From NCBI GenBank assembly GCA_029778615.1, contig JAKOPZ010000147.1, positions 1 to 39,970 of the forward strand: a stretch of DNA of 39,970 nucleotides, read 5' to 3'. Source of the DNA: Chloroflexota bacterium (lineage in GTDB: Bacteria > Chloroflexota > Anaerolineae > UBA4142 > SHND01). Within the stretch, counting starts at the first letter, position 1. Each line of letters begins with the position of its first letter. The position numbers and the translations under genes are program-made. Of this stretch, positions 2,613 to 35,639 are shown one piece after another. Under the pieces are notes generated by a model, which saw only the letters and a list, made by a program, of their open reading frames with translations, was not told the DNA's origin and made no database searches.

Positions 2613-3824
2613 ATGCAAAATCGCAAACTGCTGCTTTTCATTCCCTTTTTCCTAATTCTCGCGTGTCTCGTCTATTTGGTTTTGCCGGCAGGGCAGGATG
2701 GACCGACGGGCAGCGCACAGGCGCGCGAAGACCGCACGCCAACATGCGCGGTGGAAAATCAACCCGTCGTCACGGACCCCAAAACAATCACCGTGAACGC
2801 GGGCGAAAAAATTCAAGCCGCGATAGATGCCGCGCGTCCCGGTGATACCATTCTCATCTTGCCCGGTACCTACAACGAAGGTGTTGTCGTCAAGCGCAAC
2901 AATATTACTCTGCGCGGACAATTGGACGGGACGACGCGTCCGATTCTCGACGGACAAAAACAAATCGGCAACGGTGTCATCGCGTGCGGCGATAACTTTA
3001 CGATTGAGAATTTGCACATTAAAAATTATCAGGCGAACGGCGTCGTCGCGAACGGACCCGACGGGGTGACGATGCGAAACATTTTTGCAGAGGATACGGG
3101 CGAGTACGGACTGTTTCCCGTTCATTCCAAAAATGTGCTGCTCGAAAACAATATCGTCACGGGTTCGAGCGACGCCGCGTTGTATGTGGGACAATCAGAA
3201 AATGTGGTGATGCGGAACAACGAAGCGTACGGCAACGTCACCGGACTCGAAATCGAAAATACGTCCAACGCGCTCGCCGAGAACAATTATTTGCACGACA
3301 ATGCGGGCGGCTTGCTCGTTTTCATCTTGCCCGATTTGGCGCGCAAAGAGACCAATAACAATCAGGTGCGCCACAATCGCATCATCGGCAACAATCATGA
3401 AAATTTTGGAAAACCGGGCAGCACTGTTTCGCGCGTGCCGCCCGGCGTGGGCATGGTGCTGCTCGGTCCTGACCATACCGAAATCACCGGCAACGAAATT
3501 CGCGACAATCGTTCCGCCGCCCTCGCGTTGGTTTCGCTTCGCATCTTTTTTGGCGACCGCAATGATTTTGATGTGGGCACCGAACCGGAAGGCAATCGGA
3601 TTTACGGCAACACGCTGAGCCACAACGCGTATGACCCGCATCCCGCCGCGAAAGAATTTGGGTTTCCGGCTGCGGATATTATTTGGGATGGCTCCGGCGC
3701 GGACAACACCTTTGACCAACCCGACGCGACGACGTTTCCCCCAATGCTGCCCACGTCGAATTGGTCGCCGCTCGTGTCCAACGCATACGGTAAAGTGTTG
3801 GGCGTCCTACGGAGATTTTTATAA
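2613..3824 (+). CDS. Exported parallel beta-helix repeat protein
   Basis: A 403-residue protein. Residues 1-27 form a hydrophobic export or anchor segment; ILAC at 15-18 could be a lipobox but the hydrophobic stretch continues past it. After a short disordered part comes KTITVNAGEKIQAAIDAARPGDTILILPGTY, the usual opening of right-handed beta-helix proteins of the NosD/TIGR03805 kind, followed by many 20-25-residue coils rich in Asn (for example LLENNIV, VMRNNEAYGN, ITGNEIRDN, NRIYGNTLSHN). Such proteins bind or act on surface polysaccharide or are structural; the substrate is not readable. AAAAGGTG at 2601-2608 precedes the ATG. The nested hairpin repeat lies directly downstream. Confidence 0.85.
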   Translation: MQNRKLLLFIPFFLILACLVYLVLPAGQDGPTGSAQAREDRTPTCAVENQPVVTDPKTITVNAGEKIQAAIDAARPGDTILILPGTYNEGVVVKRNNITLRGQLDGTTRPILDGQKQIGNGVIACGDNFTIENLHIKNYQANGVVANGPDGVTMRNIFAEDTGEYGLFPVHSKNVLLENNIVTGSSDAALYVGQSENVVMRNNEAYGNVTGLEIENTSNALAENNYLHDNAGGLLVFILPDLARKETNNNQVRHNRIIGNNHENFGKPGSTVSRVPPGVGMVLLGPDHTEITGNEIRDNRSAALALVSLRIFFGDRNDFDVGTEPEGNRIYGNTLSHNAYDPHPAAKEFGFPAADIIWDGSGADNTFDQPDATTFPPMLPTSNWSPLVSNAYGKVLGVLRRFL

Positions 3825-3828
3825 CTCA

Positions 3829-3962
3829 ATGTGCAACTCTTTCGCGGGACAAATGTCATTTCGAGCCGTTCCCTCAATGCTTCGGGACAAGTTTTGCGAG
3901 AAATCTCATTCGCGCCTTGCGAGATTTCTCGCTCCGCTCGAAATGACAAAAGTGTTGCACAT
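3829..3962. repeat. Nested hairpin repeat, copy 1
   Basis: Core 3854-3948: TGTCATTTCGAGC (3854-3866) is perfectly inverted as GCTCGAAATGACA (3936-3948), and GCGAGAAATCTC (3896-3907) as GAGATTTCTCGC (3921-3932). The flanks add a further, unrelated pair: ATGTGCAACTCTTT (3829-3842) with AAAGTGTTGCACAT (3949-3962), one mismatch. A T-rich run follows at 3966-3970. Related to the copy at 35396-35540. No open reading frame. Confidence 0.85.
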
Positions 3963-3974
3963 TAGGTTTTTATC

Positions 3975-5759
3975 ATGTCACTTGTACACTGGGACGTTTC
4001 CGAAATTTATCCCGCGCTCGATTCACCCGAATTCGAGCAGGGCTTTGCCAACGTCGTCGCGCGGATTCACGCGCTGGAGATGATGTTCAATCAACACAAC
4101 ATCGCACGCATTGAGAATGCCGTTACCGACGCCGCAGCGGTCCAAACCTTTGACGCGGTGATTGCGGAATATAACGCGACGCTCGACGAGTTGAGCACAC
4201 TGTTTGCGTACATCAGTGCCTTTGTCTCTACGGATTCGCGCAATGCACTCGCGCAGGCAAAACTTTCCGCGCTGCAACAGCACAACATCACGCTGTCTAT
4301 ACTCGACACACGTTTTATCGCGTGGCTCGGTTCGCTCGATGTCGAACACTTGATTGAACATTCTGCGGCGGCGCGCGCACACGCATACGCACTGCGGCGC
4401 GCGAATATTGACGCGCAGCATCTCATGTCGCCCAAAGAAGAAGAACTCGCGGCCGAATTGAGCGTGACGGGCGGCATCGCGTGGGGAAGGTTGCACGGCG
4501 ATGTTTCTTCGCAAATTATGGTGCGCGTGGAACGCGACGGCGAAACGAAAACAATCCCGATGAGTACGGTACGCACGCTCGCGTACGAATCCGACCGCGC
4601 GCTGCGCGAACGCGCCCAACGCGCCGAACTGGACGCGTGGCAGGCGAATGCGGTGCCGCTCGCCGCCGCGTTGAACAGCATCAAGGGGCAAGTGAATACG
4701 CTGAGCAAACGACGCGGTTGGGATTCCGCGCTCGACGAAGCGATTCACGATGCGGCGATTGACCGCGCCACGCTCGAGGCGATGATGTTCGCCGCGCGCG
4801 AATCCTTTCCCGATTTTCGTCGTTACCTAAGAGCCAAAGCGCGCGCGTTGAAGGTGGAACAACTCGCGTTCTATGATATTTTTGCGCCGCTCGCGGAGGG
4901 AACGCGCGTGTGGGAGTTTGACGACGCGCGCGATTTTATTTTGACCCATTTCGGAACGTATTCGGAGAAAATGCGGGAATTGGCGCGCCGCGCGTTCGAC
5001 GAACGATGGATTGATGCCGAACCGCGCGCGGGCAAACGCGACGGCGCGTTTTGCATGTGGCTGCGGAACGGCGACTCGCGCGTGCTCTCGAATTACAAGC
5101 CCGCGTACGGCGGTATGAGCACGCTCGCGCACGAACTCGGACATGCGTACCACAATCTGGTGAAAAAAGAACGCACGGCGATTCAACGCAGTACGCCGAT
5201 GACGCTCGCCGAAACTGCAAGTATTTTTTGCGAAACGCTTGTGCGCGAGGCGGCACTCCAAGAAGCAAGCGGCGCGGAACGGGTCGCGATTCTCGAAGCG
5301 TCCCTGCAAGGTTCGTGTCAAGTGGTGGTGGATATTTCGAGTCGTTTTTTGTTTGAGCAAGATGTGTTTGACCAACGTCACGCGCGCGAATTGGCGGTGG
5401 AGGAATTGAACGCGTTGATGCTCGACGCGCAAAAAGCAACGTATGGTGACGGATTGGACGCGGACACGCTGCATCCGTTTATGTGGGCAGTCAAGCCGCA
5501 TTATTACAACGCGGGACGTTCCTTTTACAATTTTCCGTATATGTTCGGACTGCTGTTTGGTCTCGGGCTGTACGCGCGCTACCAAGCCGACCCGAACGAT
5601 TTCAAAAAGGGGTACGACGATTTATTATCGTCAACAGGAATGGCAGATGCGGCAACACTCGCCGCGCGTTTCGGCATTGAGATTCGCACACCGGAATTTT
5701 GGCGCGCGAGTTTGGATGTGATTCGGGGTGATATTGCGCGGTTTGAACAAGCGGTGTAA
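3975..5759 (+). CDS. pepF: M3 family oligoendopeptidase (PepF-like)
   Basis: A 594-residue thimet-type metallopeptidase, the usual length of M3B oligoendopeptidases. The zinc site HELGH is at residues 386-390 inside TLAHELGHAYHNLV, and the downstream Glu ligand lies in the ETASIFCE segment about 25 residues later. The C-terminus has HYYNAGRSFYNFPYMFGLLFGLGLYA, the conserved substrate-side block of the family. It has no signal peptide and should act in the cytosol on short peptides. The ATG at 3975 gives the expected N-terminus, though no ribosome-binding site is visible; the leader is the 3' end of the nested hairpin repeat. A strong terminator follows within 10 bases of the stop. Confidence 0.92.
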   Translation: MSLVHWDVSEIYPALDSPEFEQGFANVVARIHALEMMFNQHNIARIENAVTDAAAVQTFDAVIAEYNATLDELSTLFAYISAFVSTDSRNALAQAKLSALQQHNITLSILDTRFIAWLGSLDVEHLIEHSAAARAHAYALRRANIDAQHLMSPKEEELAAELSVTGGIAWGRLHGDVSSQIMVRVERDGETKTIPMSTVRTLAYESDRALRERAQRAELDAWQANAVPLAAALNSIKGQVNTLSKRRGWDSALDEAIHDAAIDRATLEAMMFAARESFPDFRRYLRAKARALKVEQLAFYDIFAPLAEGTRVWEFDDARDFILTHFGTYSEKMRELARRAFDERWIDAEPRAGKRDGAFCMWLRNGDSRVLSNYKPAYGGMSTLAHELGHAYHNLVKKERTAIQRSTPMTLAETASIFCETLVREAALQEASGAERVAILEASLQGSCQVVVDISSRFLFEQDVFDQRHARELAVEELNALMLDAQKATYGDGLDADTLHPFMWAVKPHYYNAGRSFYNFPYMFGLLFGLGLYARYQADPNDFKKGYDDLLSSTGMADAATLAARFGIEIRTPEFWRASLDVIRGDIARFEQAV

Positions 5760-35161: not shown

Positions 35162-35392
35162 ATGGCTGTGAGTGTAGACCTATTGGAAATTTTGCGTTGC
35201 CCGAACTGTGTACGCAATGGACCGGCCGCGGGCATGTTGGATATGGTGCGCGCCGATACCGCCCTCCCGTTTTTGGTGTGCCGCGATTGTGCGCGCAAGT
35301 ATCCCATCAAAAATGATATTCCCATCATGTTGATTGAAGAAGGCGACAAATATCAAAGCATGACGGTGGAACAACTGCCGACGACGATTTAA
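35162..35392 (+). CDS. Trm112-like zinc ribbon protein
   Basis: A 76-residue protein with a four-Cys zinc ribbon (C13, C16, C40, C43) and the signature LLEILRCPNC, LPFLVCRDCARKYPIKNDIPIMLIEEG. Trm112/UPF0434 proteins activate methyltransferases; the partner here is not identified. AAAGGAG (35148-35154) precedes the ATG by seven bases. The second nested hairpin repeat begins four bases after its stop. Confidence 0.9.
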   Translation: MAVSVDLLEILRCPNCVRNGPAAGMLDMVRADTALPFLVCRDCARKYPIKNDIPIMLIEEGDKYQSMTVEQLPTTI

Positions 35393-35395
35393 GGC

Positions 35396-35540
35396 AGGAC
35401 TTTCGCTCAGATGTCATTTCGAGCCGTTCCCTCAGTGCTTCGGGACATGCTTTGCGAGAAATCTCAGTGGTACAGTGCAAGATTTCTCACAGAGTTTACC
35501 CCGAAGGATTGAGGGGTTCGAAATGACAAGCGCAAGTCCT
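35396..35540. repeat. Nested hairpin repeat, copy 2
   Basis: Core 35412-35528. TGTCATTTCGAGCC (35412-35425) is inverted as GGTTCGAAATGACA (35515-35528). The CCCTCAGTGCTTCGGG stretch pairs imperfectly with CCGAAGGATTGAGGG, and GAGAAATCTCAG with a GATTTCTC arm. The flanks form AGGACTTTCGCT (35396-35407) with AGCGCAAGTCCT (35529-35540), one mismatch. About 40 bases of the left half are almost identical to copy 1. Confidence 0.85.
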
Positions 35541-35639
35541 ATAAGGATACGGTGACAGGGACGCGAATCGAATTTACCAAGATTTGATTTCGGCTCCCGC
35601 GCGGTCCGCTTTCGCAACGCGGAACGCATGGAAAGCGTA

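Follow-up and report, generated by a model that had tools for sequence, protein, structure and literature searches.

Introduction

Inverted dimers of CGTC- or TGTC-tagged REPs, including dRS3 of Neisseria and RPE-4 and RPE-6 of Rickettsia, were described by Di Nocera et al. in 2013 (PMC3733652). These REPs have no dedicated transposase, and the means of their spread was left open. REP dimers were also found inside longer palindromes, which did not occur without the dimers and were treated as insertion targets. In BIMEs and REPINs, which are moved by RAYTs, REPs are arranged as inverted pairs with a spacer. The IS-derived bacterial MITEs, such as Nezha, Chunjie and QMITE (PMC10969869), are short, noncoding and mostly intergenic elements with IS-like TIRs, target duplications and a matching IS in the genus. 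Our literature search for REP-carrying MITEs yielded only the 2013 study as relevant, and a search by sequence motif gave no relevant match.

The elements analyzed here lie in a 39,970-nucleotide stretch of DNA (the window) from a Chloroflexota genome, a draft assembly of 6.0 Mb in 372 contigs (G000), and they combine traits of these systems. Their core resembles the dimers of PMC3733652 in its TGTC tag, the AT composition of the first two stem pairs, a stem of about 9 bp, a short tail, the inverted dimeric arrangement and the lack of a dedicated transposase, but differs from the published families in a tandem G.A step within the stem, a loop of 3 nt (4 to 5 nt there) and the tail CTC (mostly CCA there). 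The core shares the inverted REP pair and spacer with BIMEs and REPINs; unlike in those systems, however, none of the Y1/RAYT genes examined here, apart from a broken one beside a MITE, was flanked by this REP, and the best explanation for its dispersal is the action of DDE transposases on the outer TIRs. The features listed above for the IS-derived MITEs recur in our elements, with a matching IS in the genus for some of the TIRs, yet here MITE families whose TIRs are unrelated share a single interior, a REP dimer, and several interiors occur within one type of TIR. Finally, the outer palindromes that were regarded as insertion targets in PMC3733652 are, in our case, TIRs bordered by target duplications.

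Results

The first-pass annotation of the window had drawn two hairpin elements, at 3829-3962 and 35396-35540. Both cores were confirmed at these places, but the complete elements proved to be longer and to be enclosed by perfect direct repeats (Table 1). The reported pairing of the sequences flanking the cores was genuine, involving 14 of 15 bases in copy 1 (13 of 14 had been claimed) and, as claimed, 11 of 12 in copy 2, and single-strand folding of the two regions was much more stable than that of shuffled sequences (z scores of -7.7 and -9.9). Copy 1 is located between genes encoding a right-handed beta-helix protein and an M3 peptidase, and copy 2 at the stop codon of a Trm112p-like gene. 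Within the region 3810-3980, the copy 1 element contributes two bases to the stop codon of the upstream gene.

Table 1. Parts of the two elements in the window
Feature	Position	Strand	Evidence
Left target-site duplication of copy 1, TTTTAT	3817-3822		Identical to 3968-3973; single copy in the empty site of L111
Copy 1, complete 145-bp family A MITE	3823-3967	+	TIRs and core recur at 18 surveyed sites
Left TIR of family A, AACTCAATGTGCAACTCTTT	3823-3842	+	14/15 innermost bases pair with right TIR; recurs genome-wide
Core of copy 1, inverted dimer of TGTC-tagged REP-like units, TGTCATTTCGA...TCGAAATGACA	3854-3948	+	Stem compensation in 29 units
Right TIR of family A, AAAGTGTTGCACATTAGGT, adjoining the core	3949-3967	+	Pairs with left TIR; recurs in other copies
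Right target-site duplication of copy 1, TTTTAT	3968-3973		Identical to 3817-3822
Left target-site duplication of copy 2, TAAGG, containing the stop codon of the Trm112p-like gene	35390-35394		Identical to 35542-35546
Copy 2, complete 147-bp family D MITE	35395-35541	+	TIRs and core recur at 11 surveyed sites, of which 9 have exact duplications of 5 bp
Left TIR of family D, CAGGACTTTCGCT	35395-35407	+	11/12 pairing; same TIR in IS701-family element L290
Core of copy 2, REP-like dimer of the same type (TGTCATTTCGA...TCGAAATGACA)	35412-35528	+	Matches to the core motif
Right TIR of family D, AGCGCAAGTCCTA, adjoining the core	35529-35541	+	Pairs with left TIR
Right target-site duplication of copy 2, TAAGG	35542-35546		Identical to 35390-35394

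The location of both copies at gene 3′ ends, at stop codons, would suit an explanation in which a REP dimer was inserted into an intrinsic terminator or another hairpin that the host has at the ends of genes, the outer arms being what is left of that hairpin on either side. A precise empty site in a relative spoke against it. A contig of a Chloroflexi MAG (L111) carries both neighbor genes of copy 1, with 81 to 85% protein identity, and it could be aligned without gaps to the window sequence from which the element and one TTTTAT had been removed (64 of 79 bases identical; 34 in the next best placement). This site contains neither the hairpin nor any palindrome, and the upstream stop and downstream start codons overlap there as TAATG, which the insertion of copy 1 splits. 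The empty-site comparison, which the first-pass annotation had itself put forward, thus refutes at copy 1 the proposed insertion into a preexisting hairpin or terminator and shows that the inverted arms came with the element. Its other proposal, that the insertion creates the inverted flanks, was right insofar as the arms arrive with the insertion, but they are TIRs of MITE families with the duplications lying outside them, and not local DNA. Since the arms are in addition present in many copies and surrounded by target duplications, we regard a terminator origin as extremely improbable. The copy 2 element was absent downstream of the Trm112p-like gene in all four orthologues from the genus (L256-L259), whose spacers are too diverged for a base-exact comparison.

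To define the repeated unit, paired cores were read out together with their flanks in approximately 1.13 Mb of G000, in which only a few flank pairs recurred. At 77 sites, a short noncoding element was bounded by a full TIR pair around the core, and these sites were assigned to families A (18 sites), B (33), C (15) and D (11); the stretches were picked mostly around known copies, so the resulting copy densities are biased upward. The flanks are ACTCAATGTGCAACTCTTT / AAAGTGTTGCACATTAGGT in family A, which includes copy 1 of the window, ACTCAYGTTACGCA in family B, CAAGGCAACTGCAAAGTC in family C and AGGACTTNCGCT in family D, which includes copy 2. The whole genome contains 254 exact matches to TGTCATTTCGAG, 37 matches to the 24-nt left end of copy 1 and 14 exact matches to the TIR plus core of family D. 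Each family has a target duplication of fixed length, namely 6 bp in A (11 of 18 sites), 6 bp in B (22 of 33), 10 bp in C (13 of 15) and 5 bp in D (9 of 11), whereas only 0 to 0.5 duplications per family are expected by chance when the left and right flank partners are swapped between copies. The boundaries of the family A copy in the window are shifted by one base relative to the best-scoring register of the family. The identification of the window copies as MITEs, that is, as transposons with a REP dimer as interior, is therefore well supported. The flanks of the two copies do differ, as had been noted, since copies 1 and 2 are members of separate MITE families; the flanks are nevertheless not local sequence, and the ends recur in many other copies. 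The asymmetry ascribed to both copies, with one arm abutting the core and the other separated from it by a spacer, extends to families A, B and D here and in relatives but not to family C. In one contig (L059, 3640-3930), a family D MITE sits within a family C MITE, beside the TGTCAT end of the latter. In another (L108, 9628-9765), a family C TIR pair surrounds a REP dimer of a different class (TGTCATTGCGAG...GAAGCAATCTC), so that one MITE family carries two REP classes.

In its short form, each half of the core is 28 nt long and reads TGTC-ATTTC-GA-NN-NNN-NN-GA-GAAAT-CTC. It begins with a tag and ends with a tail, and the stem between them is interrupted by a conserved tandem G.A step. Among 29 distinct units, 98% of cells were paired, five of the seven pairs showed changes on both sides, and the covariation score was reached by none of 500 shuffles. 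These units had been gathered with fixed TGTCAT and ATCTC ends, and the tag and the outer two pairs are hence uninformative and provide no independent evidence. The 29 units display the unpaired CGTC/TGTC tag and the 8- to 9-bp stem starting with A-T and T-A pairs that characterize the CGTC-tagged REP superfamily. However, the 3-nt loop and the CTC tail depart from the loop of 4 to 5 nt and the CCA-like tail, and consequently the core was not placed in any of the four described families. A complete REP dimer in a related genome (L335, 380-500; G005) is preceded by tandem partial TGTCATTTCGAT units.

Mobilization of the core by a RAYT was considered and rejected: none of 34 Y1_Tnp loci in 13 genomes was flanked by the core, with the sole exception of a broken gene beside a family A MITE, where the only core pair is that of the MITE. 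At that locus (L196, 1767-1870; G000), a Y1 transposase gene fragment whose family match is incomplete directly adjoins the MITE.

Across 60 relatives, the core motif was abundant in the genus and the order and almost absent further out. In four sister species of the genus, the core was found within TIRs B, C, C2, D or E, or bare. As the first-pass annotation had suggested, flank pairing in collected copies was compared with shuffled controls. In a single test covering G000 and its relatives, strong pairing was detected in 62 of 145 distinct copies but in only 0.4% of shuffled flanks, which excludes chance, already considered unlikely in the first-pass annotation, as the cause; the score misses many short or imperfect B pairs, and the share of copies with TIRs is therefore understated. 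Bare cores devoid of TIRs were also present, and target duplications at these cores did not exceed the control. Their existence means that the core either has a further mode of dispersal or can shed its TIRs.

The bare cores are among the observations that could be accommodated if the core itself were mobile and preferred hairpin loops, so that REP dimers repeatedly entered coreless MITEs or TIR palindromes that were then amplified. The core of families A, B and D falls precisely on the 3′ edge of the loop that the TIRs would form as a hairpin, further palindromes are nested in the interiors, and target palindromes have been proposed for some REP dimers (Di Nocera et al., PMC3733652). On the other hand, TIR palindromes that have the same spacers but lack the core were not seen, almost all of the paired C TIRs in G000 had the single spacing of the core-bearing copies, and the fetched A pairs contained the core. 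Moreover, the bare cores lack target duplications, the core of family C is set off from the loop edge, and the Y1 transposase loci examined were, apart from the one MITE insertion, free of the core. We consider such a mobile core rather unlikely. At a deeper level, part of the earlier reading may still apply, in that REP dimers may once have entered TIR palindromes that were later amplified as units.

Autonomous transposons with matching ends were found, mostly in relatives, for the C-like TIR and for three of the others (B, D and E), but not for TIR A. A 1178-bp element with TIR B (L282) and an element with TIR D (L290) were both assigned to IS701 (NCBIfam), and the latter is bordered on both sides by ACTCG, as predicted by the 5-bp rule of family D. 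An element with TIR E (L274) matched ISH3 best, with a score under the cut-off of that model. An ISAs1 element of G000 (L266) has the C-like TIR of the MITEs of another genome (G004); TIR C is tied to ISAs1 only through its resemblance to this C-like TIR and through its 10-bp duplications. None of these four transposons contains the core. The partners of TIRs B, D and E reside in other species of the genus, L266 being the only match within G000, where end pairing over the surveyed 1.13 Mb disclosed no autonomous copies with TIRs A to D. For TIR A, ten relatives yielded only MITE-sized pairs or single ends and no full-length partner. These and all other sequences analyzed here come from fragmented draft assemblies. 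The similar ends of families A, B and D, and the IS701 affiliation common to B and D, may reflect kinship among the three, in which case the number of independent associations could drop to three.

The interiors were not confined to particular TIRs. Besides the REP dimer, B-type TIRs enclose an 84-bp AAATTT hairpin type as well as other interiors. Families B, C and D of G000 have an exact 50-nt module in common, and in another genome (G001), one element of B type (L303) and one of A type (L373) share a 144-nt interior stretch with 97% identity. Two elements have mixed ends, C/B in L058 and E/B in L252, which is the outcome expected from recombination inside the core. The sequences further suggest, as a weak trend, that core similarity is better predicted by genome than by TIR type (mean identity of 0.669 versus 0.627; p = 0.08).

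Descent from a single ancestral MITE that already carried the core, with the TIRs diverging alongside their transposases into the present families, would agree with the membership of the B and D transposons in one IS family and with the orientation and junction of the core, which across species are usually the same in B and D. It accounts poorly for families C, with its 10-bp duplications and ISAs1-like TIR, and E, with its ISH3-like end, which belong to other transposase families, and for the quite different interiors that also occur in B-type TIRs. The near-identical interior shared by A and B TIRs within G001 points instead to a recent transfer. Common descent of all families thus seems improbable to us.

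Discussion

Our results make it very probable that REP dimers ride on IS transposases as interiors of MITEs, and the dimers may be exchanged between MITE families by recombination in the core. The riding on IS transposases is well supported, while transposition itself is what we infer; taken together, the comparisons argue strongly for dissemination of the REPs by these enzymes. Each MITE consists of an IS-type TIR pair around a shared interior, in which two TGTC-tagged REP-like hairpins form an inverted dimer. With a transposase provided in trans, the TIRs would be cut and the whole unit inserted, with duplication of 5 to 10 bp of the target, a step supported by the duplications, the one empty site and the autonomous IS elements with ends B, D, E and C-like. 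The REP dimer would thereby multiply as the interior of several MITE families with no need for a transposase of its own, a pattern that is directly visible in the distribution of the elements.

Recombination or template switching within the core could then swap the TIRs, as every interior starts and ends with the same REP arms. Based on the two mixed-end elements and the near-identical interiors in different TIRs, we give this swap an even chance. One dimer could have come to reside in TIRs that are unrelated to each other through recombinational exchange, through insertion into TIR loops on several occasions or, as far as families A, B and D are concerned, through descent from a common ancestor. 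By extension, REPs without a transposase may generally persist as an exchangeable MITE interior, with ends and interiors reassorted in the REP arms and hitching on whichever IS is active, and the published dimers "inserted in palindromes" may represent the same arrangement; this generalization could as readily prove wrong as right.

The recognition of the outer palindromes as IS ends with duplications offers a testable route for the spread of REPs, namely hitchhiking on IS701, ISAs1 and ISH3-like transposases, and it may explain how a repeat family that lacks its own transposase spreads through genomes. The nearest published cases, in Halothiobacillus neapolitanus and Anabaena variabilis, are open to re-examination for target duplications.

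Some of the elements collected along the way have more elaborate or simpler interiors. The long interiors of L303 (1501-1898) and L373 (1499-1838) in G001 contain several nested palindromic repeats, ATATCGA-type REPs and GCGATG repeats, common to B and A TIRs. In G004, three contigs (L295, L310 and L320) harbor coreless B-TIR MITEs of 83 to 84 bp that are built on the GGCAAATTTNAAATTTGCC palindrome.
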